Assembly (NCBI GenBank): GCA_028286345.1
Contig: JAQBRT010000001.1
Coordinates: 434,001 to 498,000, forward strand
Source: Candidatus Saccharimonadota bacterium
GTDB taxonomy: Bacteria; Patescibacteriota; Saccharimonadia; Saccharimonadales; UBA4665
DNA length: 64,000 nucleotides
Direction: 5' to 3'
This document shows, in pieces, positions 36,023 to 55,495 of the stretch. The notes below the pieces were generated by a model that worked only from the letters and a program-made list of their open reading frames with translations, did not search any database and was not told the DNA's origin. Made by a program: the position numbers and the translations under genes. The stretch's first letter is position 1, and every line of letters begins with the position of its first letter.

Positions 36023-37084
36023 ATGTGGAGCAAAATTTTGGCCGGGGCCTTGGTGTTTGCAACCCTCCCCGCAACCAGCACTTACCAATTGAATAGCTAC
36101 GGCTTTGGCAGTGGCAGTGCCTCTGGTGTGCACACGACGACCTATTCGTTAGAAGGCTCAACCGGCGACCTCAGCGGTGGCCGTAGTAGTACAGCGGCCT
36201 ATACTACCAAGCCTGGTTTTATCGAAAGCGCCCAGGCCCAAGTGCCACTGGTCAGCGCTTTTGATAATAACGGCGGCCAGTACTATAACAAACTGCACAT
36301 AACTATTAATGAAGCACAGGTCCCGGCACCACCCAGCGACACCGAATACCTTATCTCCGTAAGCACCGATAACTTTGCCTCCCCGGCCAATTACACCTAC
36401 CTGCAGCCCGACGGTACGCTATCGTCTACGCTCAACACCAGTGATTACCAAAGTTACACCACGCTTGGGGGTAGCAGCGGCACACTTATTATTGGCTTGT
36501 TAGCAAACACCACCTATTACGCCCGAGTGCGGGCAGTGCAGGGCAACTTTACCGAATCTTCATATAGCCCTACGGTCAGCATCACCACGGCTAACCCCAG
36601 CCTGACTTTTAACCTTATTACTAGCGACAATAGCCCTCCGCCTTACAGTATTGATTTTGGCACGCTCACTGCCGGTAGCATCACGCAGAGTAGCAACACA
36701 ATCGATACGACACTGTCGACTAACGGTGCAGTTGGCGGCGATATCTATATAGTTGCCCAAAACGGTGCGCTGGTAAGCAGCACATCCGGCGGCCGGATCG
36801 ATTCGGTGACTACTGACCTGACCAGTGCGTCGCATGGCTTTGGTGCCCAGAGTACCTTTATTGGCCAGACATCCGGCGGACCATTCAGTATTGCTTCGCC
36901 GTTTACTGTCAGTGGCACCAATGTGGCATTAATAGGTACGACTGCCCAGAGCCTGTATACCAGCAGCGCACCCATCACCGGTGGGCTTGGCAAACTACGC
37001 CTCAAAGCCAAGCCGTCTAATACCGATGTTGCGGCCACCGATTACCGCGAAGTCTTGACGTTCATTGCCGCCGGCAACTTTTAA
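36023..37084 (+). CDS. Secreted surface protein with FN3-like domain
   Basis: A 353-residue exported protein with a short signal peptide (ILAGALVFATLPATS). It contains a repeated Gly/Ser segment (YGFGSGSASG), an FN3-like module (about 85-190, ending TTYYARVRAVQGNFTESSYS), and a C-terminal beta domain ending DYREVLTFIAAGNF. That ending matches the C-termini of the next two proteins (DTLTIVAAGNY), pointing to a shared terminal module. TACTGT is a weak -10 seven bases before the ATG. Confidence 0.85.
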   Translation: MWSKILAGALVFATLPATSTYQLNSYGFGSGSASGVHTTTYSLEGSTGDLSGGRSSTAAYTTKPGFIESAQAQVPLVSAFDNNGGQYYNKLHITINEAQVPAPPSDTEYLISVSTDNFASPANYTYLQPDGTLSSTLNTSDYQSYTTLGGSSGTLIIGLLANTTYYARVRAVQGNFTESSYSPTVSITTANPSLTFNLITSDNSPPPYSIDFGTLTAGSITQSSNTIDTTLSTNGAVGGDIYIVAQNGALVSSTSGGRIDSVTTDLTSASHGFGAQSTFIGQTSGGPFSIASPFTVSGTNVALIGTTAQSLYTSSAPITGGLGKLRLKAKPSNTDVAATDYREVLTFIAAGNF

Positions 37085-37122
37085 CCAGTTGGCTGCCTGT
37101 GGATAACTTAAGCGAAAGCGTA

Positions 37123-37150
37123 TTGACATCGTCCCAGAGTAGGATATGAT
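37123..37150 (+). promoter_or_regulatory. Promoter of the surface-protein gene at 37199
   Basis: TTGACA (37123-37128), 16-base spacer, TATGAT (37145-37150). The leader of about 42 bases is A-rich. Confidence 0.65.
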
Positions 37151-37198
37151 GAGGACATAACCTTAAAATAAACAAAATATAAAAAGAGTAATAAGATA

Positions 37199-38266
37199 AT
37201 GATTAAAAATAAAAAATCCCTATTCGCTGCACTGTTGATTGTCTTTAGTTTAATGGCTCCTGAAGTTGCTAGTGCAACTCCACAACTTAACCAAGCTGGT
37301 ATTCGTCTCGGCCGCCTAGCCGAAAGCGCTTCTTCTGGTAATGACCTGTTTGTGAGCTTTAAGCTCAATACCACACCAACCAGCGTCTCTAAAATTACTA
37401 TAACGTTCCCAACCGGCTTTACGGTTGCAACCGCTTCGCCGTCAGTAGTCACTACTAACCGTCCAAACAGCCCTGCAACAACTGCCACACCTGGCACGCT
37501 GACAGCTGCTTCCACAGGTGGTGGTGCGGGATCAGGTGGTACGATTGTTGTTTCCGGCCTGACCTCTGGTAGCCTGAACAGCACCACTCTGTACGGCTTT
37601 ACTGTTGCCTCAGGTGTTATCACCAACCCAGCAACCCCAGGCCAGTACAACCCGACTGTTGAAAGTGACGACTCAGGTGGTACGCCAATCGATGTTACAA
37701 CTACTCCGACCTACATTTACGGCGCCTCGGCTAACCAAGACCAAATTGGGGTTACCGCATCCGTTGCACCGAACTTTACTTTCCAATTGAGTGCTAATGC
37801 CGATTCTGTTCCTCAGGTCGACTCCTCAACTGTTAAGACTTCTGGCGGCGTCACGATGACCGTAGCAACCGACTCCCCACTTGGCTACACAGCCTACGTT
37901 AAATCAGCCAACGCTTCGCTTAACTCGGCCACCAGCCCGGCTACTCCAATTGCCACCGGCACCTTTGACGGTACGCCTGACAGCTTTGTGGCTGGCTCAA
38001 CCAAGTACGGCTTTGTCCCATCAACAGGTACCGCTTGTAGCACTTGTACTGGTAGTATCAGCTATGACGCTGAATATGCTGGCCTTGATGCTGCCCACGC
38101 CGGTGCGTTCAACACCGCTGGCAACTTTGCCTCATTCGTCTCACGCAGTGGTTACACCAACTCCGATCAGATCAGCTTGAAAGAGCGTGTCACTGTTGCT
38201 AACACCGTTGGGTATGCTAATGACTACACCGACACCCTGACAATTGTTGCCGCTGGTAACTATTAG
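37199..38266 (+). CDS. Secreted beta-rich surface protein, paralogue A
   Basis: A 355-residue exported protein: signal peptide (KSLFAALLIVFSLMAPEVASA), then PQLNQAGIRLGRL shared with paralogue B. The first half resembles a jelly-roll or Ig-like domain (KITITFPTGFTVATASP), the second carries TYIYGASANQDQIGVTASVA, GYTAYVKSANASL and the end DYTDTLTIVAAGNY. The A-rich leader lacks a strong ribosome site. The protein is very low in charge and Thr/Ser/Gly-rich, as in coat or fibre subunits. Confidence 0.88.
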   Translation: MIKNKKSLFAALLIVFSLMAPEVASATPQLNQAGIRLGRLAESASSGNDLFVSFKLNTTPTSVSKITITFPTGFTVATASPSVVTTNRPNSPATTATPGTLTAASTGGGAGSGGTIVVSGLTSGSLNSTTLYGFTVASGVITNPATPGQYNPTVESDDSGGTPIDVTTTPTYIYGASANQDQIGVTASVAPNFTFQLSANADSVPQVDSSTVKTSGGVTMTVATDSPLGYTAYVKSANASLNSATSPATPIATGTFDGTPDSFVAGSTKYGFVPSTGTACSTCTGSISYDAEYAGLDAAHAGAFNTAGNFASFVSRSGYTNSDQISLKERVTVANTVGYANDYTDTLTIVAAGNY

Positions 38267-38296
38267 TAGATAATCTTGCAACGATTCTCTTGACTT

Positions 38297-38359
38297 AAGT
38301 CCTCACGGTCGTTTACCATAAGCTTGAACGCTGAAACGTAAACAAGCCAGTGAGGACTT
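38297..38359 (+). promoter_or_regulatory. Long inverted repeat enclosing the ribosome site of paralogue B
   Basis: AAGTCCTCAC (38297-38306) is the exact reverse complement of GTGAGGACTT (38350-38359), which contains the GTGAGG ribosome site before the GTG start at 38361. An inner pair GTTTAC/GTAAAC extends the fold. A TTGACT (38290-38295) abuts the left arm, so the repeat could act as RNA or as an operator. Confidence 0.5.
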
Positions 38360-38360
38360 T

Positions 38361-39440
38361 GTGATACAAAACAAAAAAGCGCTGATTTTTGCCGTTGCAC
38401 TAGTTGCAGTCCTGTTTCTGCCTGATGTCGCTAGTGCTGTACCCCAGTTAAACCAGGCCGGGCTTCGCTTTGGCCGACTTGGCATTAGCGCTGCCACCAA
38501 CAATGACCTACTGGTGACCGTTAAACTGCGCACTACGCCAACATCTGTCCGTAAGGTTAAGATAACTTTTCCGTCCGGTTTTAATATTACTACCGCTGGC
38601 CTGGCAGTTGCCGCTACGCCTTCAACTATTTTCCCGAGTACACCAGCTATAACCGGCTTGCCTGGCACACTGTCAATTGCCGGTACGACCAATGGATCAA
38701 ACCTCGGCGGTACAATTACCGTCACAACAACCTCGACTACACTCGATAGCAGTACGCTATACGGCTTTATTATCGCTTCGGGCAATATTACTAACCCGAG
38801 CAGTGCCGGGCAGTACTTGCTCTCTGTTGATAGCCAGGATGCTACCCCGACAACTATCGACAGTACCCCTGTCGCAACCTATATCTATGGCGCATCAGCC
38901 AACCAGGACCAAGTAACGGTCACTGCCTCGGTGGCACCGCTGTTTACGTTTACCCTCAGCGGCAACAACGATATAGTCCCGCAGGCCGATAAAAATACAG
39001 TCGTGACTTCGCCTGGTGTTACGCTAACTATCGCTACCAATGCGCCACTAGGCTACACTGCCTACGTTAAATCGGCCAATGCCGCCCTTGACTCTGCCAA
39101 TACCAGCGGAACCATACCAACCGGTACATTTAACGGTAGCCCGGACAGCGTGGTTGCCGGAACCAGTAGCTACACCTTTGTGCCCTCTAGCGGCACGGTT
39201 TGTGTTGGCGGCTGCAACGGTTCGAGCGTAATTACTTACGACGGCGAATATAACGGCATCACAGGCGCCAGTGGCGGTTCATTTAACGCTGCTGGCAGCT
39301 TTGCATCATTCGTCTCACGCAACGGCTTCACCGGCACAGACAACTTCTCACTCAAAGAGCGGGTGGCCGTATCGGCAGTCCAAGCAGCGGCTACCGACTA
39401 CACCGACACCCTGACAATTGTTGCCGCGGGCAATTATTAA
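38361..39440 (+). CDS. Secreted beta-rich surface protein, paralogue B
   Basis: A 359-residue protein alignable end to end with paralogue A: signal peptide, VPQLNQAGLRFGRL, TYIYGASANQDQVTVTASVA-type block, GYTAYVKSANAALDSA, and DYTDTLTIVAAGNY at the C-terminus. It starts at GTG. A small disulphide candidate is CVGGCNG. It follows paralogue A by 94 bases and is a tandem duplication that has diverged well. Confidence 0.9.
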   Translation: MIQNKKALIFAVALVAVLFLPDVASAVPQLNQAGLRFGRLGISAATNNDLLVTVKLRTTPTSVRKVKITFPSGFNITTAGLAVAATPSTIFPSTPAITGLPGTLSIAGTTNGSNLGGTITVTTTSTTLDSSTLYGFIIASGNITNPSSAGQYLLSVDSQDATPTTIDSTPVATYIYGASANQDQVTVTASVAPLFTFTLSGNNDIVPQADKNTVVTSPGVTLTIATNAPLGYTAYVKSANAALDSANTSGTIPTGTFNGSPDSVVAGTSSYTFVPSSGTVCVGGCNGSSVITYDGEYNGITGASGGSFNAAGSFASFVSRNGFTGTDNFSLKERVAVSAVQAAATDYTDTLTIVAAGNY

Positions 39441-39456
39441 GCTATACTAGTTGGCA

Positions 39457-40512
39457 ATGAAGGGGTTTTTCCACGTACTTGCGGCAGTGCTACTACTGAC
39501 CATTGGCATCCAGGCAGTATCGCTTCCGGCCGCTTCTGCCGCCCAAGAAGGTTTTAATATCCTAACCTCGCCACTGCCAATCAAGTTAACAACGGCACCT
39601 GGCAAAACCGTCAGCGCCGAATTACGCCTCAAAAACCAAAGCAACAGTAACGAAACAATCAAAGTGGGGTTGATGCGGTTTGGAGCCCAGGGCGACCTTG
39701 GACGCCCCAACCTATTTGACCTAACCCCTAAAGACACCTACGCCAACTGGGTTCATTTTAGCCCCAGCCAATTTGTTGCCGAGCCCGGGGTTTGGAAAAC
39801 CGTCAAGATGACCATTGATGTGCCATCTGACGCCTCACTTGGCTACTATATGGCCGTAACCTTTGGTCGGGCCGCCCAAGCCGGACAAGCAGATGCTACT
39901 AATGTTAAGGGCGCCGCCGCGACGCTGGTATTACTCGATGTCCATACCGGCAACGAGGTGCGCAAGCTGCAGCTGGTAGACTTTTCGAGCCAACACAAAC
40001 TCTACGAATACCTGCCAGCCAGCTTTAACATCCGGGTGCGTAACAGCGGTAATATCTACCTGGCACCAACCGGCAACATTTTTATCCAACGTGGCAGCAA
40101 GCCGGTGAGTACAATTGTCTTTAATGAGGCAGGGGGCAGCGTGCTGCCAAGCTCTAACCGGCAATTTAGCGTTGCCTGGAAGAGCGGTTTCCCGCTATTT
40201 ACCGATAAGGTCGTGAACGGCAAACCGGTGCTAGACAAAAAAGGCAATCCGGTCCAAGAGCTTAGGTGGAAGTTCTCAGACGCCGACAAGTTCCGGTTTG
40301 GCCATTACACCGCCAAACTACTCCTGGTCTACGATAACGGCCAGAATGATGTGCCGCTCGAATCGGAACTAAGTTTTTGGGTGCTGCCATGGAAAATCCT
40401 GCTGGTCCTATTTGTGATCTTCTTAGTGGTGGCTTACGGCATTTGGACACTTAGCCGCTCATTGCTCGGCAAAGCCAAAAGCGGCGCCCGGAAGATTCGC
40501 CGCCGTGACTAA
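39457..40512 (+). CDS. Membrane-anchored Ig-like surface protein (DUF916/PapD-like), first copy
   Basis: 351 residues from ATG 39457 (MKGFFHVLAAV). Signal peptide ending ASA, then a beta-sandwich of the kind in DUF916/WxL-interacting or pilus-chaperone-like proteins (PIKLTTAPGKTVSAELRLKN, then VPSDASLGYYMAVTF), a second Ig-like domain, and a C-terminal membrane helix (about 310-332) with a basic cytosolic tail (KSGARKIRRRD). TATACT (39443-39448) ends eight bases before the ATG: probably leaderless. It overlaps the next gene by eight bases. Confidence 0.88.
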   Translation: MKGFFHVLAAVLLLTIGIQAVSLPAASAAQEGFNILTSPLPIKLTTAPGKTVSAELRLKNQSNSNETIKVGLMRFGAQGDLGRPNLFDLTPKDTYANWVHFSPSQFVAEPGVWKTVKMTIDVPSDASLGYYMAVTFGRAAQAGQADATNVKGAAATLVLLDVHTGNEVRKLQLVDFSSQHKLYEYLPASFNIRVRNSGNIYLAPTGNIFIQRGSKPVSTIVFNEAGGSVLPSSNRQFSVAWKSGFPLFTDKVVNGKPVLDKKGNPVQELRWKFSDADKFRFGHYTAKLLLVYDNGQNDVPLESELSFWVLPWKILLVLFVIFLVVAYGIWTLSRSLLGKAKSGARKIRRRD

Positions 40513-41458
40513 GTTCGTGCGCTGGTTTAGTATCATTAGTTTTTTGGCTTTCCTAAGCTTTCCAAGTCACGCTTTGGCGGCCCAAAAAATACCAGTTGGG
40601 ATCACCCTTAGCCCGCTGCTACAGCAAATCCAGATCCAAGCTGGCGATGTGGCAAAAAGCTTTGACGTAACGGTGACCAACAATACGGGCACTGTTCAAG
40701 AAATCAGTTTGTCGGCCCGGGATTTTGGCTCGCTTAATGACACTGGCGGCCTGATTTTTGAAGGTGCCAAGAATAACTATTCGCAAAAGTATGGCCTGGC
40801 TTCTTGGCTGAGCGTTAGCCAGGATACGGTGGTACTTAACCCGCATGAATCAAAAACATTGTTGGCTTCTATAGAAAACCGCAGCTCATTACAGCCGGGC
40901 GGGCACTATGGCGCAGTTGTTGCTAGCGTTGGTAACTTAGATAGCCAATCACCGGACGCAGTAGTCATTAACCAGCAACTGGTGGCCTTGGTCTTGGTAA
41001 CCAAAGTTGGCGGCGAACACTACGATTTGCGTCTCAAGCAGGTTACTCATAACGGTAACTGGCTCCATTTGCCATCTACGGTGATATTGCGCTTTCAAAA
41101 CCCGGGCAACGTCCACGTTATCCCGCGTGGCCTGGTTGAGCTAAAAAGCCCGTCAGGAACCGTTATGGCCCGTGGTGTCATCAATGTTGATTCGGCTATT
41201 GTATTGCCAGAAAGTTTTAGGACCCTACCGGTCGATTTAACGCCTGTAGGAAAAGCTTTTCCGTGGCCTGGGCAGTACCATCTGAGCGTGCAGTACCGCT
41301 ATGACGGCCTCGATCGGTTTGCGGCAAAGAACATTGGTTTGCAGTTTGTTAACGCCGGCATGGGCGTATTATTAGTTGTGATTTTAGCGGCTGCTTTTTG
41401 GACCGTGAAACAGCGCGTGAAGAACCGTGAAAAACCTGCCGTAAAGTCCAACAAATAA
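40505..41458 (+). CDS. Membrane-anchored Ig-like surface protein (DUF916/PapD-like), second copy
   Basis: A 317-residue protein with the same plan as its upstream neighbour: signal peptide (IISFLAFLSFPSHALA), GITLSPLLQQIQIQAGDVAK, ASIENRSSLQPGGHYGAVVA, a second Ig-like domain (FQNPGNVHVIPRGLVELKSP), a C-terminal membrane helix (about 280-300) and a basic tail. GTG start within the upstream gene. Such pairs could hold secreted partners at the surface by analogy with WxL systems; that is inference. Confidence 0.88.
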   Translation: MTKFVRWFSIISFLAFLSFPSHALAAQKIPVGITLSPLLQQIQIQAGDVAKSFDVTVTNNTGTVQEISLSARDFGSLNDTGGLIFEGAKNNYSQKYGLASWLSVSQDTVVLNPHESKTLLASIENRSSLQPGGHYGAVVASVGNLDSQSPDAVVINQQLVALVLVTKVGGEHYDLRLKQVTHNGNWLHLPSTVILRFQNPGNVHVIPRGLVELKSPSGTVMARGVINVDSAIVLPESFRTLPVDLTPVGKAFPWPGQYHLSVQYRYDGLDRFAAKNIGLQFVNAGMGVLLVVILAAAFWTVKQRVKNREKPAVKSNK

Positions 41459-41546
41459 CAGAGACAAAAAGCTTGTGTTTAGTTGTGATTTTTGTTACGA
41501 TTTTAGTGGAAGTTTTAAAAATAAATATGTGAGGAAGTCTTCAGAC

Positions 41547-44500
41547 GTGAAGCGCCCCTGGAAAATAGCCAAAGTTTTGGTTGTTGCCGCCCTTGTAGCC
41601 GGTGTTTTTGGTATCGGCGTGCGCCCGCTTGTGGCCACAGCCGTAGCGCCAACCACCGTTCCAAACACTATTAGTTTCCAGGGAAAAATCGTTAATTTTA
41701 GTAACGGTACCAATGTTGCCGACGGCACCTATTCGGTTACGTTCCGGTTATACAGCGCCTTAAGCGGCGGGACGGCGGTGTGGGGCGAAACGCAGGCTAG
41801 CGTCACGGTGGCTGGTGGTGTCTTCCAGGTTAACCTTGGCAGTACCTGTTCGTTCTTTGTGACGCAGACTTGTAGTGGCATCAGCAACACGGCCATCGAC
41901 TTTAGCACCGGCCCATCGCTCTACCTGACAGTCCAGTTTGCTGCCGACTCCCAAGAAACCAGCCCGCGCATCCCTTTGCAGTCAGTGCCATTTGCCTTTA
42001 ACGCCGAGACAGCCAACAAGCTAGGTGGCCTGACAGCCAACCAATTTATCCAACAAGGCGGCAACACTTTTAGCGGTACAACTGCTGCCGACATCGGGAC
42101 GATTAATAACGGGTCACTTAACTTCCGCACCAATAATGGCATCAGGCTAACGGTGAGCACCACAGGCGACCTGCAGTTCGCCCTTGGCGGCGCCAGGACA
42201 ATCAATATTGCCCAAGAAACGGGCACCACAGTTGGCGACCAACTAACAATTGCTGCCGGGCAGGGCGGCTCAACTGGTGCCGTTGGGGGGATCTTGGCAC
42301 TTCAGGGTGGTAATGCATCCGGTGCTGGCAATACCAACGGCGGTAATGTAACCGTAGATGGCGGTGTAGCGACTGGTAGTGGTGCCCGCGGTACGATTGT
42401 TTTGCAGGGAACGAGCGGTGTAGTTAATATTGGTGCGGTAACTACACCAATTGCAGGTTTTAGCCTCGAGGCGGCTACCAGCCGTAATGGACCTGCCGGC
42501 ATTGCTGCGCACAACAGCAACACCGGCACACAGGCATTCACTGCCTTTTATGCGTACAGTGACAACGCTGGCGGTACCAATAACTATGGCCTGATTGGGG
42601 CAGCAGCAAGCACGTACTCAATCTTTCCCCTTCTGAGTAACCGGGCCTTTCTGCTGGCTGGCTCAAGCACGTCTGGTTTAGTCGTTGGTAGCGTGACAGG
42701 CACCAACCCAACTCTGTTTGTAAACGGCAACGCCGAAGCCGGCCGTTTTACAGCAGCTGGTAACCTCTCGCTCGGTAACACTAATGACACCTATAAACTC
42801 GATGTTACCGGTGATATTAACGCCTCAGCTAATATTCGCACCGCTGGAACGCAGCGCATCGACAGCTCGGGCAATATTGTTAACGCCGGCAACTGGACGT
42901 CTACGGCCGGCAGCACCTTTTTGACGACAGGCTCAAATGGCTTCATCTTCAAGCCAGGCACCAACAGCAGCACGGCGTTTCAAGTCCAGCGCAGCAACGG
43001 TGAGCCGCTCGTATCAGTTGATACGACAACAAGCAACTTGATTACTAACCCAGGATTTGAGGTGAATACTACTGGATGGGCAGCTCGCAACAGCTCAACA
43101 GTCACTCAAAATACCAACACGGCAAATACCTACAATGGTATAGCTAGCTTGCAGATTGCTACAGCAACGGGCACAGCAAACCAAGGTGCATCAACCAGCT
43201 CATTTACTTCAACAGTGGCGGCCGGTACTTACACTCTCAGCTTTTTCGCAAAATATTCAGGAACACTGCCATCCACATTTAGGGCAGGCTACAATCAGGG
43301 CGCCAGTGATGTTGTCTGTGGCCTTAGTGCTTCAGGCATAGTAACATCTGGTTTTGTACGTTTTAGCTGTACATTTACTACCACTGCCAACCTTGTCAGC
43401 CTTTTCATTGATGATGGTGCAACGGCTGTTACATCAACTCTTTATATCGATGCTGTTCAGTTGCAGACGGGTAGCAGCGCCACCCCATACACGATCGGTT
43501 CCATTCAGCTGAGAAGTGTTATAAGCAACCCATTGTCGCTCCAAGCCACTGGTGATTCAACCTCGGCTTTCCAGATCCAGAATACTGCAGGCACTAGCAA
43601 CCTATTCGTGGCCGATACGCTCAATGGCCGTATAGGAATTAATAAATCAGCACCAACGGTTGCCTTAGATGTTGCGGGCACCATCAATGCAACTGGTTAT
43701 TCGATAAATGGTACAGCTGGTAAAACCCTTACTTGTGCCGGCGGCCAGACGACTGCCATCACAGCAGTTTCCTCAGGCATAGTTACGGTTTCCAATGCTT
43801 GTACTGGTATTTCTGACAGCCGCGTTAAGGAAAATATCACAGAGCTAGACGATAGTGTGCTCGGCCAACTTCAACAAGTTGGGGCGGTGCACTTTAACTT
43901 TAAGTGCGAAGACCCTGACTTAACTGCCCAATTTGGCTTTGACTGTAGCCTTCAGACTGGTGTTATTGCCCAGCAGGTTGCCACAATTTTCCCAGACCTT
44001 GTTACCTTGCAAGAAGATGGCTACTATCACGTTAACTACCAAAACCTGGGAATCTATACGCTTAAAGGGGTACAGGAGTTAGCACAGCACCTGAGCGCCA
44101 ATGGCGATGCTAATCTTAATGTTGTTACCGCCAACAACCTCACGGTCAATGGTGACCTTACCGTTAATGGAACGTTGCACTACAGTGCCATTGATGCCTC
44201 AAATGGTAACTTTAGCAACGGCATTATTTCGCCTTCGTTGGTTTCCGACGGGGCTTTAACTATCGATTCTGGCACCTCTGGTGATGTGACTATTGACACC
44301 GGTGGTAATAGCGCCGCTGTCAACATCGGCACCACAAGCGCCTCGGCGGTGAGGGTTGGCCACACCGGTGGCACCACTAGTACCGAAGGCAATGTTGACT
44401 TTAGTTTTGCCGATAACGAAGGCTTTACTCTCAGCAACAAGGCCACAAACAGCGCTGCCCAAGATGCTGCGCTGCACATTGACAATGCTAATGCCAGCCA

Positions 44501-45119
44501 AAGGGTTACCACTGCCGTCAAAATTACCAATAGCGGTGGTGCCGGTTACGACACAATTATTAGTAGCCCGAACTTTACAGTCACCGGCGATGGCAATGTG
44601 ACTGCCGGGACTATCAGCAGCACCGGCAGTTTTGCCTTGTTTGACGCCACCCACAACCTGGTGGCCAGTATTGACCAGTCTGGCAATGCCAGCTTTGACG
44701 GTAATTTAACAGCTGCTAACTTGACGGCTAACGGTGGCCTGAGTGTTGGCGGTGACGCTAACTTTGCCGGCCTAAGCGCCTTCCAGAAGTTAGCAACATT
44801 CTTTGGCAAAGTTATCTTCCGCCAAGACGTCCGCTTCGATGCCCACATTACCGTTGCCAGCGACACTGCTGGCTATGCCCAACTCAAAACTGGCGAAACC
44901 ACAGTTCATGTTACATTTGTAACCCCTTACGAAACAACGCCAATCGTCACATCCAACATTACAAACGGCCAATTTGCACTGAGTAGCATAAATAATGTTA
45001 CAGCCACAGGCTTTGACGTTGTGCTCTCGGCACCAGCGCTGAGCGATACAATGTTTAGCTGGACAGCCCTCGGCGTAACCAGTCCGCAGACGGCAGCCAA
45101 TCTGCCGGCCAATCCATAA
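41547..45119 (+). CDS. Giant fibre-like surface protein with internal S74 chaperone domain
   Basis: 1190 residues from GTG 41547, chosen because GAGGAAG lies nine bases upstream; the frame is open further left to 41475. Signal peptide or anchor (KVLVVAALVAGVFGIGV), an N-terminal trimerising-type module (NTISFQGKIVNFSNGTNVAD), long Gly/Thr/Asn-rich beta-helix-like repeats, and a carbohydrate-binding-like domain near residue 500-650 (NPGFEVNTTGW). The S74 intramolecular chaperone spans about 756-845 (SDSRVKENITELDD; HVNYQNLGIYTLKGVQELAQ). About 345 residues follow it. Such domains promote trimer folding and self-cleave at the conserved Ser. Confidence 0.9.
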   Translation: MKRPWKIAKVLVVAALVAGVFGIGVRPLVATAVAPTTVPNTISFQGKIVNFSNGTNVADGTYSVTFRLYSALSGGTAVWGETQASVTVAGGVFQVNLGSTCSFFVTQTCSGISNTAIDFSTGPSLYLTVQFAADSQETSPRIPLQSVPFAFNAETANKLGGLTANQFIQQGGNTFSGTTAADIGTINNGSLNFRTNNGIRLTVSTTGDLQFALGGARTINIAQETGTTVGDQLTIAAGQGGSTGAVGGILALQGGNASGAGNTNGGNVTVDGGVATGSGARGTIVLQGTSGVVNIGAVTTPIAGFSLEAATSRNGPAGIAAHNSNTGTQAFTAFYAYSDNAGGTNNYGLIGAAASTYSIFPLLSNRAFLLAGSSTSGLVVGSVTGTNPTLFVNGNAEAGRFTAAGNLSLGNTNDTYKLDVTGDINASANIRTAGTQRIDSSGNIVNAGNWTSTAGSTFLTTGSNGFIFKPGTNSSTAFQVQRSNGEPLVSVDTTTSNLITNPGFEVNTTGWAARNSSTVTQNTNTANTYNGIASLQIATATGTANQGASTSSFTSTVAAGTYTLSFFAKYSGTLPSTFRAGYNQGASDVVCGLSASGIVTSGFVRFSCTFTTTANLVSLFIDDGATAVTSTLYIDAVQLQTGSSATPYTIGSIQLRSVISNPLSLQATGDSTSAFQIQNTAGTSNLFVADTLNGRIGINKSAPTVALDVAGTINATGYSINGTAGKTLTCAGGQTTAITAVSSGIVTVSNACTGISDSRVKENITELDDSVLGQLQQVGAVHFNFKCEDPDLTAQFGFDCSLQTGVIAQQVATIFPDLVTLQEDGYYHVNYQNLGIYTLKGVQELAQHLSANGDANLNVVTANNLTVNGDLTVNGTLHYSAIDASNGNFSNGIISPSLVSDGALTIDSGTSGDVTIDTGGNSAAVNIGTTSASAVRVGHTGGTTSTEGNVDFSFADNEGFTLSNKATNSAAQDAALHIDNANASQRVTTAVKITNSGGAGYDTIISSPNFTVTGDGNVTAGTISSTGSFALFDATHNLVASIDQSGNASFDGNLTAANLTANGGLSVGGDANFAGLSAFQKLATFFGKVIFRQDVRFDAHITVASDTAGYAQLKTGETTVHVTFVTPYETTPIVTSNITNGQFALSSINNVTATGFDVVLSAPALSDTMFSWTALGVTSPQTAANLPANP

Positions 45120-47143: not shown

Positions 47144-47244
47144 AAAGATTGCAATGGCGATTATATCATCGAAGTGTAAAAACATCTATAAGATTGTAAA
47201 ATAATTGTTTTAACGGCGGTGATTTGCTATACTTAAGCGAAATC

Positions 47245-48204
47245 ATGGCTAGCACCGTCACCCCTGAACTATCAATTATTGTCCCGGTTTATAACGAAGC
47301 CGCCGGTATTGAGGCGTTTCATTCATCGCTTGTTGCGGTAATCAAAGACTACAAAAATTATGAAATTGTCTATGTTAACGACGGCAGCAGCGACGATTCT
47401 TTGCAAAAACTGCAAGCCTTAGCCGGTCCAAGCCGGGCAGTACGGATAATCAGCTTATCGCGCAACTTTGGCAAGGAAATTGCCGTGACCGCCGGCATCC
47501 AACTAGCCCGCGGGCAGGCAATCATGACGCTAGACGCCGACGGCCAATATCCGGTAGAACTAATCCCCAAGTTTATTGAGCAGTGGGAGCAGGGCTCCCA
47601 AATAGTCATTGGCATGCGCCAGAGCAACCAAAAAGAGGGCTTTATTAAGCGCTATGGTTCCAAGCTCTTCCACTACCTTATTAATAAATATAGTGATGCA
47701 CATTTGGTTTATGGCTCTACCGACTACCGTTTAATAGACCGCGAAGTCCAGCAAGCGTTTATGCGCATGCCAGAGCGCAACCGTACAAACCGCGGTGTGA
47801 TTGATTGGCTCGGTTTTGAGCGCAGCTATGTACCGTTCCACGCCAAAGCCCGTGAGCATGGCGAAGCCGCCTATTCATTCAAGAAACTTTTTAAGTTAGC
47901 CATTGATAGCGTAATATCACTCAGCTCTTCGCCGCTTTATGCGGCTGCCTATATTGGCGCCGTGATCGTGCCGTTCTCGATTTTGCTGGGTATTTTTATG
48001 GCAATCGAAATGGCTATTGGTGACCCTCTGAACCTGAACATCACTGGTGGCGGCTTTGTTCTGGACCTGGAACTGCTTTTGATTGGCGTCTTGCTACTGT
48101 CGCAAGGTATAATTGGCTTATATTTGTCACACATACATGCCGAAACCCAAGGCCGGCCACTGTATGTGATTGACGAAACCAAGTCAATTCGTACCCATGG
48201 ATAA
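47245..48204 (+). CDS. Polyprenyl-phosphate glycosyltransferase (GT2, GtrB/DPM-like)
   Basis: 319 residues from ATG 47245 (MASTVTPELSIIVPVYNEA). Transfers a sugar from a nucleotide donor to polyprenyl phosphate at the inner leaflet. GT2 core: VYVNDGSSDDS, SLSRNFGKEIAVTAG, and the metal-binding MTLDADGQ; two C-terminal membrane helices (about 230-250 and 272-295). TATACT (47228-47233) ends eleven bases upstream, so the leader is only a few bases. The next gene overlaps by eight bases, and together they form the start of a glycan operon. Confidence 0.94.
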   Translation: MASTVTPELSIIVPVYNEAAGIEAFHSSLVAVIKDYKNYEIVYVNDGSSDDSLQKLQALAGPSRAVRIISLSRNFGKEIAVTAGIQLARGQAIMTLDADGQYPVELIPKFIEQWEQGSQIVIGMRQSNQKEGFIKRYGSKLFHYLINKYSDAHLVYGSTDYRLIDREVQQAFMRMPERNRTNRGVIDWLGFERSYVPFHAKAREHGEAAYSFKKLFKLAIDSVISLSSSPLYAAAYIGAVIVPFSILLGIFMAIEMAIGDPLNLNITGGGFVLDLELLLIGVLLLSQGIIGLYLSHIHAETQGRPLYVIDETKSIRTHG

Positions 48205-48592
48205 AATTACAGAACTTCTTAAACGTCCAGGCATGCGTTACCTACTTGTAGGTGGCAGTGTGTACTTATTTGAATTGGCGGTTATTGTCATTGCCCAACT
48301 CATGGGCGCCGGCCCGGTATTAGCGGTGGCTATTAGTTACACACTCGGCACGTTGGTGTCGTTTGGCCTGCAAAAACTAGTGACCTTTAGCGACAAGCGT
48401 ATGCATCACAAGATTGTTGTTCCGCAGCTCATCGCTACTATCGCCTTAGTGGTCTTTAACTTTTTGTTTACGCTACTGGTCGCCAAACTGCTGGCCAATG
48501 TTGTACCGGTAGTCGTTAGCCGGACCATCGCCCTAGGCATCTGCACAATCTGGAACTTCTACCTCTATAAGACCCGTATTTTTAACCAGTAG
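48197..48592 (+). CDS. GtrA-like flippase
   Basis: 131 residues from ATG 48197 (MDKITELLKRPG), overlapping the glycosyltransferase gene. Four membrane helices and the family start RYLLVGGSVYLFELAVI, with a typical end NFYLYKTRIF. GtrA proteins move polyprenyl-phosphate sugars to the outer leaflet, matching the upstream enzyme. Confidence 0.92.
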   Translation: MDKITELLKRPGMRYLLVGGSVYLFELAVIVIAQLMGAGPVLAVAISYTLGTLVSFGLQKLVTFSDKRMHHKIVVPQLIATIALVVFNFLFTLLVAKLLANVVPVVVSRTIALGICTIWNFYLYKTRIFNQ

Positions 48593-48600
48593 GCAAGGGC

Positions 48601-51153
48601 ATGAGCCGTTATTTTAGGATGCTTGCACTATACGGCGGAATGGCAATCGTCCTGTTATGGACGCTGTTGCGCTGCATTACCAATGGCGTAAACTTTGATG
48701 TTGTTGGCCAAATTGGCCTAGCCCAGCAATGGGCCCACGGGCAAATGGATGGCTCCCAGCTTGGGGCAACCAACTACCTACTTAAGGTTCCGGCCTACTT
48801 CCTAATAAACCAGTTCCAAGCGCTGCCACCGCTGTACCGTATAACACTACTGGCCATACTGTTTAACCTGCTGACATTCTTCTTGTTCTTCAAATTATAT
48901 GAAAAATTCCTTGAACTTTACGATGTCAAAGACCGCCGCTGGTTTTACCTGGCATTTATCTGGTTGGCGACCATTGCCGGCAACACTTTTTGGATTGATT
49001 ACGCCAACTCGCGCAACCTTGAGACCGCTGGTGGCTTATTCTTTGTCTACCTCGTACTGCGCTACCTAAAACACCCCCATTGGAAAAGCCTCCTTGGGAT
49101 GGGCTTGACTGGTGCCGTAGTGTTCTTTGCAGACCCCCTACAGTTTTACGTCTGCGGTATAGGCAGCTGTGTATTCATAGTTGGCCGCTTGCTACTACGC
49201 CATGCCAAGAGTGATGCTATTGCCGCCGCCCTAGTAACTGGGGTAACAGTCCTGGCCTACGACGGCGCAAAACTACTGACAATGTTTGCAAAAGCAGTCT
49301 TTCACACCTCAATGCTAGCAGCCCCATCGTCGCATCCCGGCCTGACAGTCCACTATGTATTGTCGATATTGGGCACCCTAGTCACCAGTACGCTGACAAT
49401 CTTTGATGCCAACTTCCTTAAAGGCGCCCATGGTCCGCTACTGCTCCGCGAGCTGTTGAATGCGGCGCTACTTGGCCTGGCAGCGTTGGTCTTGTTCCGC
49501 CATGCTTTCCGATGGCGTAAAGTTCCGGCCTACGGCTTGGCGCTGACGCTGATTGGCGTAAATTACCTAGTCTACATAGCCAGCGGCCAAGTTACACAGT
49601 GGCAGACTGCCCGCTACTTAGTCATGGTGCCGCTACTGGCTGTGCTGATGGTTAGCGTATTGGGCGAAAGTTTGGTGCCCGAAAAATTACGGCGGCGCGC
49701 GCAACCGTTGCTGTTGCTAGCGCTTGCCTGCAGCACTGTGCTGCTGCTGGGCGCACTAGCGCTGAACTGGTCGCAGCGCTACTCCAAAGATACGCATATT
49801 GCTACCACGCTTTCATTTATGCGCAAAGGTGGTTACCAGTATGCCCTAGCCTCGCGCGAGATGGGCATCACCGGCACTTATTTTAGTGATGGGGCAGCAA
49901 CTATTTTGCCTATGGGCTGCGACCAAAACCACACCCTGCAGCCAACCAACCTGTTTTTTGACAACGGCGGTTTTAAGGGTCTGTACAGCTACTCCAAAGA
50001 TGTGCCAATTCTGATTGGGCCGCAGGGTATAACATTCGGTGCAATTACCTGTAGCCAGGGTGATATTGTGGCCCAGTTTGGCGCGCCCAAGCGGCTGGCC
50101 ACGATTCCGGGAGTTGGCACTATTTTGGTCTATAATGCGGCAAGTTTACGCATCAAAGGTATTGATGATATCGTGGGGCACCCTCGCCGTCTGACAAAAG
50201 CCGAGCTGGTCGAGCCAACTTATACCCCGGCAACAACAATCAAGGAAATACCGCAACTGCCAGCGCTGAGCGGTTGTAGTGCCGGTACTATCGATACGGT
50301 GGTGGCCCATCCAGATGACGACATCTTATTTATGAATCCCCGCCTGGCAGCCCAACTACTAAACAGCTGTGTCCGGACTATATACGTAACGGCAGCCGAT
50401 GATGGCCGGCCGCCAAGTTACTGGCTCGGCCGCCAGCACGGCATAGAAGATGCATACGCATTAATGCTTGGTGCGGATAGTAACTGGACAGATGCGTATG
50501 TAACGGTTAATGGCCATCGGGTTGTGACACGCGAGCTTGCTGGCCACCCCAGTGTAAACCTTATGTTCTTACGCCTGCCAGATGGAAACGTCCACGGGCA
50601 GGGCTTTATAGAAACCGGCTCTAAGTCCCTCGAAAAACTATCCCATGGCGGCGATATGAAGGCAATTGACGGCTCAACCAGCTACACCTACCCAGATCTT
50701 GTAACTTTTATAAGCGACATTTTTCGCGCCGACAACCCTAAAGCCATCTATACGCACTTAGCCGACGGGCCATACAGCATTGGTGACCACAGCGACCACC
50801 GAGCCGTTGGTGCAATAACATTACTGGCCCGGTCAGTTGCTCAGTCTAATGCGGTAGTATCACAGTATGTTGGCTACCCAAGTGGCGGCATGGAGCCAAA
50901 TGTCTCAACCGCCCAAGCAGAGCAAAAGCGCCTCATCTTTAATGCCTACGCTGCCGATGATGGTGTTATCTGTGTTGCCCAGTCAGCCTGTTCGACCATG
51001 GGTACCTATGGCCGGTACTTTACTCGCAGTTATAGTTTTGAATACCCACCCTCAGCAGCCACTACCCCTACACCAGCACCGAAGAAAATCGTAAAAAGAC
51101 AGCACCCCAAAACACACAGCCCTATCGACTTACTCCAGCGCACCATAGAGTAA
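48601..51153 (+). CDS. GT-C-like membrane glycosyltransferase fused to PIG-L deacetylase
   Basis: 850 residues. Residues 1-390 hold about eleven membrane helices; the first external loop has NFDVVGQIGLAQQW, with the acidic residue typical of GT-C enzymes that use lipid-linked sugars. After a linker, a PIG-L/LmbE N-deacetylase domain (about 560-800) follows, with AHPDDDILFMNP (His570, Asp572-574; the family has AHPDDE) and GDHSDHRAVG (His730, Asp732, His733) as zinc site. The topology puts it outside the cell. A Pro/Lys-rich tail ends the protein. It would transfer and deacetylate sugars at the surface (inference). Confidence 0.88.
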   Translation: MSRYFRMLALYGGMAIVLLWTLLRCITNGVNFDVVGQIGLAQQWAHGQMDGSQLGATNYLLKVPAYFLINQFQALPPLYRITLLAILFNLLTFFLFFKLYEKFLELYDVKDRRWFYLAFIWLATIAGNTFWIDYANSRNLETAGGLFFVYLVLRYLKHPHWKSLLGMGLTGAVVFFADPLQFYVCGIGSCVFIVGRLLLRHAKSDAIAAALVTGVTVLAYDGAKLLTMFAKAVFHTSMLAAPSSHPGLTVHYVLSILGTLVTSTLTIFDANFLKGAHGPLLLRELLNAALLGLAALVLFRHAFRWRKVPAYGLALTLIGVNYLVYIASGQVTQWQTARYLVMVPLLAVLMVSVLGESLVPEKLRRRAQPLLLLALACSTVLLLGALALNWSQRYSKDTHIATTLSFMRKGGYQYALASREMGITGTYFSDGAATILPMGCDQNHTLQPTNLFFDNGGFKGLYSYSKDVPILIGPQGITFGAITCSQGDIVAQFGAPKRLATIPGVGTILVYNAASLRIKGIDDIVGHPRRLTKAELVEPTYTPATTIKEIPQLPALSGCSAGTIDTVVAHPDDDILFMNPRLAAQLLNSCVRTIYVTAADDGRPPSYWLGRQHGIEDAYALMLGADSNWTDAYVTVNGHRVVTRELAGHPSVNLMFLRLPDGNVHGQGFIETGSKSLEKLSHGGDMKAIDGSTSYTYPDLVTFISDIFRADNPKAIYTHLADGPYSIGDHSDHRAVGAITLLARSVAQSNAVVSQYVGYPSGGMEPNVSTAQAEQKRLIFNAYAADDGVICVAQSACSTMGTYGRYFTRSYSFEYPPSAATTPTPAPKKIVKRQHPKTHSPIDLLQRTIE

Positions 51154-51167
51154 CAATAGGTGCAGTT

Positions 51168-52121
51168 ATGAGCAGCTGGACGAACACGTTACAATATATA
51201 CAGATGCGCAAGAAATACTACGCTTTACTTGGTGTAATGGTAGCAACATACATCCTGCTCGTATTTTTAACTCCCGTTAATACGGCTGTGCTTGCCAAAT
51301 ATCACATTACGGTCCTGCAGCTCAGAATAATTGATGTCTTCTTGCTGCTGCCACTGATTGCAATTTATTACATAGCTTTTTATGGTTTTATAACCATGAA
51401 AGAGTACGTCAGCCATATTAAAGATGAACCCGATGGCAAGGGCTTTAACCTGCTCGCCAGTGGGCTGGCTGTGCTGGCTATTGGTATGGTCGTTAATTCC
51501 ATACTTAGCACTATCACCAGTGTTATGACTGTACACGACCTGCGCCTGGTACCGGCTGGCGTAATTGTAGGCAACTATATGTCGGTCATACTTGGTGCAG
51601 CCAGTTTTTATCTAATCTATAAGGGCTCGGTTGAACTAAAACAGCTGGTGCGCATCCGTCCAGGCGAAGGGAGCATGCAACTGGTATCAGTGGCTTTTGG
51701 GGCACTTGGCGCCGGTTTTGCCTACCTAGCTGTTACCAACCCTGACCGCAGTGCCGCTGCTACAGCCACTAGCCATGGCGTATTTTACTTGCCCAACTGG
51801 TTGATTTTAGTCAGTGTAGTACTGCCGTATCTGGCAATGTGGTATGCCGGCTTACTGGCGGCGCGAAATATTGGCCACTACCGCCGCAATATTAAGGGTG
51901 TTATTTACCGTTCATTGCTTAAAAACCTGGGCCTAGGCGTCTCTACGATTATTGTGGCGTCAGTATTGGGCCAGATGCTCAGCTTATTCCCGCGTAGTTT
52001 CCAGAACATGTCGCTAAGCTGGGTGTTAGCGGTAATTGCTGTACTGCTTGGCGTTATAGCCGCTGGCTTTGTGATGGTGGCAATTGGGGCCAAAAAGTTG
52101 CGCCAGCTCGAAGGAGTATAG
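51168..52121 (+). CDS. Polytopic membrane protein of unknown function
   Basis: A 317-residue protein with seven to eight predicted membrane helices and short charged loops (YVSHIKDEPDGKGF; RIRPGEG). No family recognised. It starts 14 bases after the GT-C/PIG-L gene in the same direction, so it is probably the last member of the glycan operon. Confidence 0.85.
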   Translation: MSSWTNTLQYIQMRKKYYALLGVMVATYILLVFLTPVNTAVLAKYHITVLQLRIIDVFLLLPLIAIYYIAFYGFITMKEYVSHIKDEPDGKGFNLLASGLAVLAIGMVVNSILSTITSVMTVHDLRLVPAGVIVGNYMSVILGAASFYLIYKGSVELKQLVRIRPGEGSMQLVSVAFGALGAGFAYLAVTNPDRSAAATATSHGVFYLPNWLILVSVVLPYLAMWYAGLLAARNIGHYRRNIKGVIYRSLLKNLGLGVSTIIVASVLGQMLSLFPRSFQNMSLSWVLAVIAVLLGVIAAGFVMVAIGAKKLRQLEGV

Positions 52122-53923: not shown

Positions 53924-55495
53924 ATGGTTAGCACATATAGCGCTTTTGCTAATCACGCTCATGTGGGCTACCATGGTTTAGATATGTCTGTAGAAATAGT
54001 AAATGAAGAAATAAAAAGCGTTGGGTCACACCGTGTATTCCCATTGGCCTATGGCAATGAAGAAGAAACGGGCTTGATGGATACGGTCAGTGGCGTATGG
54101 GACGAGCCCTATTATTTTTGCGAAAACTTGTCGCGCTATATTCCTAAGGATATTATTCGCCATGTCGGTTACATGCCGACCCTCGACCAAAGGCCAAAAC
54201 GGGAGAACATTTGGACCGAGGGCGGTTTCCGTGTTTATCCGGGTGGTGTTGCAACGGGTGAGAATACCAACTTTGAACGGGCAACCCCAGAAGTCAAAAC
54301 ACTGGCTGATTTTGTACGCTATGTCCGCGGCAGTGAACTGCTGTCAGAAAAGATGATTGGCGCCTATGTCACTGATTGCTCAGCCCGCTTAGAGCGTCCA
54401 GTCCTGGCACGGCAGCACCGGCGCACCATCGACAGTCACCAGGATCGCAAAGCTTGTCACGATAACTTCGCTATTCCTCGCGGCTCACGCACTTCAGGCA
54501 CCAAGTTACCAAGCCAGGCGCTCGCCTACCTTAGCTATGCACCACTCATCGATGGTGCTGGTTTTGTTGATATCGACAGTGTCTTCTTATCCCAAAAAAT
54601 TGGTGGCCTTCACGAGGTTGAAGGCTATGGTTACTTTGGCCGGATGTACCGTTACTCGCATCACGAGGGCACGCCACGGCTTGAAGTCGGCTGTAAAGAC
54701 ATTAATATTTCCGATTACGCCGTTTGGATGCGCGCTGGTGTTATGGCCTTGGTAATGGGTATGGCCGGAACGGACCTGGTCACAAAACTACCTTCTGTTT
54801 CAGAGTTCAGGGCTATTCAGCAGGCCCAGGCAGTAAATCACTTAGGCTTACGGCTAGACGGCACAATCTCGGCATCCATGGAACAGGTCGCTGGTGTTGA
54901 TTTCCTGCACAAGCTGGCTGAATTGTCACTGACTGAATTGAGTTGGTACGTTGAGCAAATCCCTGACGAAATGGCAAAGGTGGCCACCGAGTTGTATTCG
55001 CTCGCTGATGACTTAAAGAAAGTTTTTGCAGGCACTGAAACGATTAGCCTGGTGGCGGACCGGCTCGACTGGGCAGCAAAGTTTGAACGCATACTCCGCG
55101 GCATCGACCGCGGTACAAATCAGGGCAAGCAGCGTAGCCTAACGGACGTAGTCAGCCGCTACCATGACCTAGACTACGATTACAAAGGTTATCACGCTGA
55201 AGATGGCGAACTTAAACCCATCATCAAGGGCTATGGTTACCGCCTGCGCGACAAAGGCAAATTCAAAGGAGAGAAGCCGGTATATATTGCAGAAACACTC
55301 ACAAACCCGCCTCGAGGAACCCGGGCGGCTGCCCGTACTGAGTTGATGCGCGGTTACCGCGTCAACACTATTGAATGGGATGAAGTGCAAGTAACTGACC
55401 TTGAGCACCTTGTAACCGTGAGCTTACCTAATGTACTCGATCAACTCGAAGAAGAAAATTACCATGAACTTCAGCGGCTCAAGCCGTTGAGCTAG
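53924..55495 (+). CDS. Dop/PafA-family enzyme (Pup ligase/deamidase-like)
   Basis: 523 residues of the glutamine-synthetase-related Pup ligase/deamidase family. Family landmarks in order: GNEEETG (GxExExG metal site), ERATPE (the TPE block), ACHDNFAIPR (GCHENY-like), YGYFGRMYRYSHHEGTPRLE then KDINISDYAVWMRAG, and VADRLDWAAKFERIL. The aspartate normally found between RxY and the TPE block is not evident: that stretch reads RVYPGGVATGENTNF. No Pup, proteasome or ring ATPase is in the window. The start is uncertain; ATG 53984 is an alternative. Confidence 0.85.
   Translation: MVSTYSAFANHAHVGYHGLDMSVEIVNEEIKSVGSHRVFPLAYGNEEETGLMDTVSGVWDEPYYFCENLSRYIPKDIIRHVGYMPTLDQRPKRENIWTEGGFRVYPGGVATGENTNFERATPEVKTLADFVRYVRGSELLSEKMIGAYVTDCSARLERPVLARQHRRTIDSHQDRKACHDNFAIPRGSRTSGTKLPSQALAYLSYAPLIDGAGFVDIDSVFLSQKIGGLHEVEGYGYFGRMYRYSHHEGTPRLEVGCKDINISDYAVWMRAGVMALVMGMAGTDLVTKLPSVSEFRAIQQAQAVNHLGLRLDGTISASMEQVAGVDFLHKLAELSLTELSWYVEQIPDEMAKVATELYSLADDLKKVFAGTETISLVADRLDWAAKFERILRGIDRGTNQGKQRSLTDVVSRYHDLDYDYKGYHAEDGELKPIIKGYGYRLRDKGKFKGEKPVYIAETLTNPPRGTRAAARTELMRGYRVNTIEWDEVQVTDLEHLVTVSLPNVLDQLEEENYHELQRLKPLS

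Follow-up and report, generated by a model that had tools for sequence, protein, structure and literature searches.

Free amino sugars on bacterial surfaces alter surface charge and resistance to cationic peptides. The Arn pathway (ArnC, ArnD, ArnEF, ArnT), which places L-Ara4N on lipid A, includes a deacylation step, and this is carried out by ArnD, a separate cytosolic deformylase of a family other than PIG-L. ArnT uses the free-amine sugar on undecaprenyl phosphate as its substrate. Deacylation before transfer, inside the cell, is the order proposed both for L-Ara4N (ArnD) and for Francisella galactosamine. PIG-L enzymes that have been characterised, MshB and BshB among them, reside in the cytosol.

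Related multi-component systems are described as working in three steps: a C55-P-sugar is formed by a GT-A enzyme, presumably flipped by a GtrA protein, and used by a GT-C enzyme that transfers the sugar to a polymer outside the cell (PMC8035078, available part). For mycobacterial and corynebacterial galactosamine, a lipid-linked sugar is described as being flipped, deacetylated by unidentified factors and then transferred by Rv3779, and the deacetylase of this pathway in Corynebacteriales was stated to be unidentified in 2022 (PMC9671496, available part). In Pseudomonas aeruginosa, the three-gene operon GpgSDF adds GlcNAc and then deacetylates it, which yields glucosaminyl phosphatidylglycerol (PMC12713373, available part).

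The cassette analyzed here encodes a GT-A polyprenyl-phosphate transferase, a GtrA protein and a GT-C protein together, as multi-component transmembrane glycosylation systems do, and its GT-C domain is fused to a PIG-L domain. Each part alone is familiar; the joining of the parts and the predicted outside deacetylation step are unfamiliar. A GT-C/PIG-L fusion was not described in the titles and abstract openings of the open-access literature searched, a body of text from which subscription papers are mostly absent.

Gene Layout and Genome Context

The window, meaning the whole stretch of 64,000 nucleotides that was analyzed, carries GT2, GtrA and fusion genes in tandem on the + strand with gaps of few bases (Table 1). 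The GtrA reading frame starts 7 bases before the end of the GT2 stop, and for these two genes the ATG starts at 47245 and 48198 were preferred over the mechanically listed TTG starts at 47224 and 48170. The fusion gene is intact. The sequence-only reading had described a glycan operon ending in the fusion; the GT2-GtrA-fusion tandem stood, whereas the end of the range is occupied by a further open reading frame, which begins 15 bases after the fusion gene. Across the 15 stretches tested, this frame was without relatives at E 1e-4, and it matched no Pfam family; its membership of the cassette was unsupported.

Table 1. Positions of the cassette genes, the fusion domains and the triple fusions of related loci (window positions unless a locus is named).
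Feature	Position	Strand	Basis
GT2 (GT-A fold) polyprenyl-phosphate glycosyltransferase, 319 aa, two C-terminal membrane helices	47245..48204	+	PF00535
GtrA-family membrane protein, presumed flippase of lipid-linked sugar	48198..48592	+	PF04138, 54 bits
Fusion gene, 850 codons	48601..51153	+	
Fusion residues 1-410, GT-C membrane domain (11 membrane helices by our reading, N terminus inside)	48601..49830	+	AlphaFold, ArnT fold match
Fusion residues 411-512, alpha/beta domain at ArnT periplasmic-domain position, C440 and C484	49831..50136	+	Secondary structure, alignment
Fusion residues 553-816, extracytoplasmic PIG-L de-N-acetylase domain (predicted)	50257..51048	+	PF02585, fold, invariant motif residues
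317-aa open reading frame, eight hydrophobic segments, possibly co-transcribed	51168..52121	+	Open reading frame
Triple fusion GtrA-GT-C-PIG-L, 1009 aa	L088:4781-7807		
Triple fusion GtrA-GT-C-PIG-L, 1026 aa	L097:4727-7804		

The two upstream genes had been called a polyprenyl-phosphate glycosyltransferase and a GtrA-like flippase, and both family assignments were borne out. The GT2 protein matched PF00535 at 114 bits, and against solved structures it scored 222 bits with GtrB sll0501 of Synechocystis (5ekp) and 127 bits with ArnC. Its scores on the PgfS model (226 bits, cut-off 500) and on the PpgS model (46 bits, cut-off 370) were below threshold. These matches point to a polyprenyl-phosphate transferase and do not name the sugar. 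The GtrA match lay above its cut-off of 26.1. A Pfam scan of the seven proteins in the neighbourhood revealed no arn genes (ArnA, ArnB, ArnD).

The genome comprises 0.90 Mb in 3 contigs and is 98% complete. The carrier of the cassette is a tiny bacterium, probably with a parasitic lifestyle; the known hosts of Saccharibacteria belong to the Actinobacteria. A second, ordinary PIG-L gene is located elsewhere in this genome (109 bits, 239 aa, zero hydrophobic peaks). A second GtrA/GT2 cluster of the same genome, which contains no PIG-L, was found at L132:7543-12535 (C2 about 165.5-170.5 kb) and also encodes two large membrane proteins of 607 and 660 aa with 11 and 13 hydrophobic peaks, respectively. 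Within the window, positions 36023-45119 (+) hold a run of ~320-360-aa proteins, mostly with a hydrophobic N-terminal segment; Pfam matches were absent or weak in the four of five proteins scanned, and the last member, of 1214 aa, carries an S74 chaperone-of-endosialidase domain (42 bits). At 53924-55495 (+), a 523-aa protein matched Pup-ligase (PF03136) at 69 bits (cut-off 25), in what is a small genome.

Domains and Predicted Topology of the Fusion Protein

An AlphaFold model of the fusion was built on a 48-row alignment and gave a mean pLDDT of 86.2 and a pTM of 0.72 for the whole protein. The pLDDT fell under 50 in two places: residues 527-546, interpreted as a flexible linker, and residues 818-850. 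In VIA-align, residues 1-512 aligned to ArnT (5f15 26-568) with Z 21.1 over 432 residues at 4.6 A, in a range that extends into the ArnT periplasmic domain, and they also aligned to oligosaccharyltransferases and ALG12 (Z 21.8). The PIG-L part (residues 555-822) aligned to BC1534 (2ixd) with Z 15.9 over 195 residues at 4.5 A and to archaeal chitobiose deacetylase with Z 15.4-15.9. All these values exceed the level of about 13 at which VIA-align warns of chance matches between helical bundles. The best Foldseek E-values were modest (PglB 2.9e-5, ArnT 3.6e-4, LnmX 1.3e-3). Neither the fusion sequence nor the PIG-L profile matched a solved structure in sequence searches; the matches came from the fold searches. 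The proposal that one 850-residue protein joins a GT-C-like to a PIG-L domain was upheld by the two predicted folds.

In the model, helices 32-45 and 60-70 follow the first membrane helix, which is a GT-C-type first outer loop with juxtamembrane helices. The acidic D33 of this loop was present in 40 of 43 alignment rows, the other three having gaps there, and R138, N139, E141, D178, R338 and Y339 were found in 43/43 rows. Residues 1-560 had no Pfam match, GT-C families (PMT_2, YfhO and the like) included, and PMT_2 appeared weakly in one of the 48 aligned members (E 0.0057). Since no named GT-C sequence profile matches, the N-terminal domain is called GT-C by its fold only.

PIG-L was the only family that Pfam detected in the fusion (PF02585, 42 bits, cut-off 28.2, residues 567-741), and 40 of the 48 aligned members also matched it, the alignment including 40 rows with the PIG-L part. 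The motifs read AHPDDD (H570, D572, D573, D574) and DHSDH (H730, D732, H733); these seven residues were invariant in 40/40 PIG-L rows, in agreement with the AHPDDD and HSDH motifs named earlier. Relatives show HQDD, HEDD or HTDD where the window protein has HPDD. The metal and catalytic roles of the HPDD and HxxH motif residues are presumed to be those of MshB. Nothing in the sequence suggests a dead PIG-L enzyme, and a degenerate, binding-only domain is unlikely because the catalytic residues are invariant.

The hydropathy of the alignment displayed 12 peaks before residue 400. The peak at 256-274 was read as an external helix, leaving eleven membrane helices as had been counted before; since 12 is an even number, the parity rests on this reading. 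The mean positive charge alternates along the alignment with the N terminus (8.8 K+R) inside, and the charges would favour an N-in/C-out arrangement provided that peak 256-274 is external. D33, R138, N139, E141, D178, R338 and Y339 all lie on the face called outer, as a GT-C active site predicts. Exactly six cysteines occur in the soluble part of 35/35 fusions (440, 484, 559, 590, 791 and 797, each invariant), and C440 and C484 were found in 43/43 rows; this is what extracytoplasmic disulfides would look like. VKOR and DsbB were not found in the genome of the window, and one DsbA-like Thioredoxin_4 protein was detected (98 bits). A hydrophobic segment, signal or anchor, precedes PIG-L in 44 of 46 non-fused relatives (exceptions L112 and L115). 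The PIG-L protein of L053 has a short N-terminal anchor, and those of L024 and L029 likewise have a hydrophobic segment ahead of the domain. Four lines of prediction, namely charges, the outer-face position of the conserved polar residues, exported relatives and cysteines, agree that the PIG-L domain is outside, and the extracytoplasmic location is well supported by them.

Recurrence and Gene Neighbourhood among Relatives

A scan of GTDB returned 354 PIG-L-domain relatives, of which the best 80 were used, and the counts therefore lean to the closest ones. With "fused" meaning at least six hydrophobic segments ahead of PIG-L, these best 80 of 354 comprised 34 fused proteins, 44 with one or two hydrophobic segments and 2 with none (L112, whose 5′ end is cut off, and L115). 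The titles of 28 of the 34 fused records named Saccharibacteria, Saccharimonadales or Saccharimonas; three of the remaining ones read Patescibacteria group bacterium and three plain bacterium. Full-length relatives from other assemblies shared the fusion junction (L037, 850 aa, 49% identity; L038, 822 aa, 43%), which, going by their sequences, is more than chance. In L088 and L097 a GtrA domain was found at the start of the same chain by profile matches, and by Pfam for L088 (Table 1). Five loci (L039, L041, L042, L053 and L090) were split, with a separate one-anchor PIG-L gene and a GT-C gene within 3.5 kb in 5/5. GTCa paralogues that are not fused to PIG-L also occur, for example in L052 and L069.

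The fusion was matched partly or wholly in 13 of 40 related genomes. Across the order, the PIG-L profile matched in 53/392 genomes, and 44 of the 57 matched places lay in open frames of at least 750 codons, as judged by frame length. In the phylum sample it matched in 11/379 genomes; five matches were weak, at no more than 41 bits, and the six strong ones, own genome included, all came from the class of the window. An indel or assembly artefact as the source of the fusion was contradicted by the 34 fused loci in other records. Judged by the retrieved loci, the fusion is a lineage-wide design of Saccharibacteria and no one-off.

A tree built from 81 PIG-L domains placed the window protein with L037 and L038 (100/99), next to three split-type loci (96/90), and fused GTCb forms elsewhere. 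This placement indicated that a split or a second fusion occurred; the root was set at the midpoint and gives no order of the split and fused states. Thirty-five mostly actinobacterial non-fused proteins formed one supported group (99/98).

Within 3.5 kb of the 34 fused loci among the best 80 of 354, GT2 was found at 21, GtrA at 20 (two of them internal) and both at 16; the 18 loci where the two were not both found include L044, L093 and L107, which had neither nearby. Four fused loci (L049, L069, L073 and L089) have almost no upstream sequence because of a contig end. At the nearest relative, L037, GtrA adjoins and GT2 does not. At the 46 non-fused loci of the same set, GT2 was found at five, GtrA at five and both at four. 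The non-fused loci with partners were all in Saccharibacteria or one other bacterium, and partners were found at 0 of the 37 non-fused loci outside these groups. The association with GT2 and GtrA, as far as these neighbourhoods indicate, is with the systems of the Saccharibacterial lineage and is not universal.

All six scanned non-Saccharibacterial exported relatives matched PIG-L, and four of them carried DUF7402 and F5/8 type C domains. In Actinomycetota, the loci L057, L062, L064 and L086 code for exported members of this PIG-L subfamily in which DUF7402 and F5/8 type C domains are repeated. An outside PIG-L had been called unusual; fusion to a transferase deserves that description, but by the sequences retrieved exported PIG-L is common (44 of the 80 relatives).

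Proposed Pathway, Alternatives and Known Systems

By analogy with the systems described above, the cassette probably attaches HexNAc to an acceptor at the cell surface and frees the amine of this sugar. In the proposed pathway, GT2 would act inside the cell and transfer HexNAc, which may be GlcNAc or GalNAc, from a nucleotide to polyprenyl phosphate, and GtrA would aid the passage of the lipid-linked HexNAc across the membrane. Outside, the ArnT-like GT-C domain would pass the sugar to a putative surface acceptor, and the PIG-L domain, held on a flexible linker at the same outer side, would remove the acetyl group and leave a positively charged amino sugar. We consider this pathway as a whole reasonably probable. 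Sequence and prediction support the gene set, the integrity of the catalytic residues, the two folds, the recurrence of the fusion and the placement of its PIG-L domain outside; we infer the sugar, the acceptor and the use of one and the same sugar by both domains. Among candidate genes for the supply of UDP-HexNAc in the genome of the window, GlmU reached 22 bits at best, with no match above the cut-off, and a MurA-like gene scored 290 bits, below the cut-off of 392.7. No match to PF00884 (LtaS-type) was found in this genome, which makes an LtaS-made lipoteichoic acid an unlikely acceptor.

The order of transfer and deacetylation could also be reversed. In this variant, which has most of the evidence in common with the proposed pathway, PIG-L would act on the flipped polyprenyl-phosphate HexNAc and GT-C would then move the free amino sugar. 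The single GtrA-GT-C-PIG-L chains of L088 and L097 would suit the handling of a lipid-linked sugar, and ArnT, whose substrate bears a free amine, is among the closest folds; the same order was proposed for galactosamine on mycobacterial arabinogalactan (PMC9671496, available part). Against this, exported Actinomycetota relatives have no GT-C neighbour, and the DUF7402 and F5/8 type C domains noted above suggest that this PIG-L subfamily acts on polymers or glycoconjugates. Because of these sugar-binding-type domains, the exported relatives that lack GT-C probably act on finished glycans, and deacetylation after transfer is slightly favoured for that reason. Deacetylation of the donor is a serious but rather unlikely alternative.

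A more improbable arrangement is one anchor with two jobs, where GT-C decorates one polymer and PIG-L deacetylates another glycan nearby, for instance peptidoglycan or one of the host. The close PIG-L relatives that are independent exported proteins and the unfused GTCa paralogues would fit such a division, whereas the recurrence of the fused form beside GT2 and GtrA in many loci, and the proximity of the pairs in every split locus, suit one pathway. It is very improbable that the domain is an ordinary cytosolic PIG-L or that the fusion is false, produced by an indel or misassembly. The cytosolic location of MshB and BshB and the unclean parity of the hydropathy peaks speak for a cytosolic domain; the six cysteines, the exported relatives, the ArnT periplasmic-domain match and the membrane anchors of the PIG-L partners in split loci speak against it, and it was rejected as far as prediction allows. 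A false fusion conflicts with its presence in other records. The two outcomes that could have overturned the sequence-only reading, a PIG-L domain in the cytosol and an indel artefact, were thus both contradicted.

If the proposed pathway is correct, a positive surface may aid the adhesion of the epibiont to its host or its resistance to cationic peptides. Saccharibacteria have other bacteria as their habitat and are difficult to cultivate, and for their surface chemistry the cassette yields a specific prediction. The fusion would also be a ready-made two-step enzyme for the production of amino-sugar glycans. We tentatively suggest that Saccharibacteria may have evolved a compact, outside-facing assembly line for amino sugars that joins flippase, ArnT-like transferase and PIG-L, with as many as all three in one chain; this would be an extracytoplasmic, convergent counterpart of Arn and a possible model for the deacetylase of the galactosamine pathway in Actinobacteria. 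A PIG-L fused to a transferase suggests to which enzyme family such a deacetylase may belong, where it may act and how its gene may be arranged.

Compared with the PIG-L/LmbE proteins (MshB, BshB, LnmX and archaeal chitobiose deacetylase), the fusion has the PF02585 profile, the fold and the metal-binding/catalytic motif in common; the solved chains are single-domain enzymes, whereas the window PIG-L is predicted to be tethered outside on GT-C. With the Arn pathway the cassette shares an ArnC-like GT2 and, in the fusion, the ArnT fold with its periplasmic domain; the Arn flippase differs in type from GtrA.

CsbB-GtcA-YfhO, GtlA-GtcA-GtlB and GacI-GacK-GacL resemble the cassette in combining GT-A, flippase and GT-C for glycosylation outside the cell, and the Gac flippase is of the Wzx type instead of GtrA (PMC8035078, available part). 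The words 'deacetyl' and 'PIG-L' occur 0 times in the available text of PMC8035078, while in the cassette a deacetylase is fused to GT-C. GpgSDF shares with the proposed cassette the addition of GlcNAc followed by deacetylation, a flippase gene and a change of membrane charge, and it differs in its separate proteins, its phosphatidylglycerol acceptor and its deacetylase (COG3233), which is predicted to be cytoplasmic (PMC12713373, available part). Likened by description, the arabinogalactan galactosamine route (PpgS, Rv3779) is similar in its polyprenyl-phosphate GalNAc, flipping, outside deacetylation and membrane transferase; its deacetylase and flippase are given as unidentified (PMC9671496, available part), and the cassette holds candidates for both.
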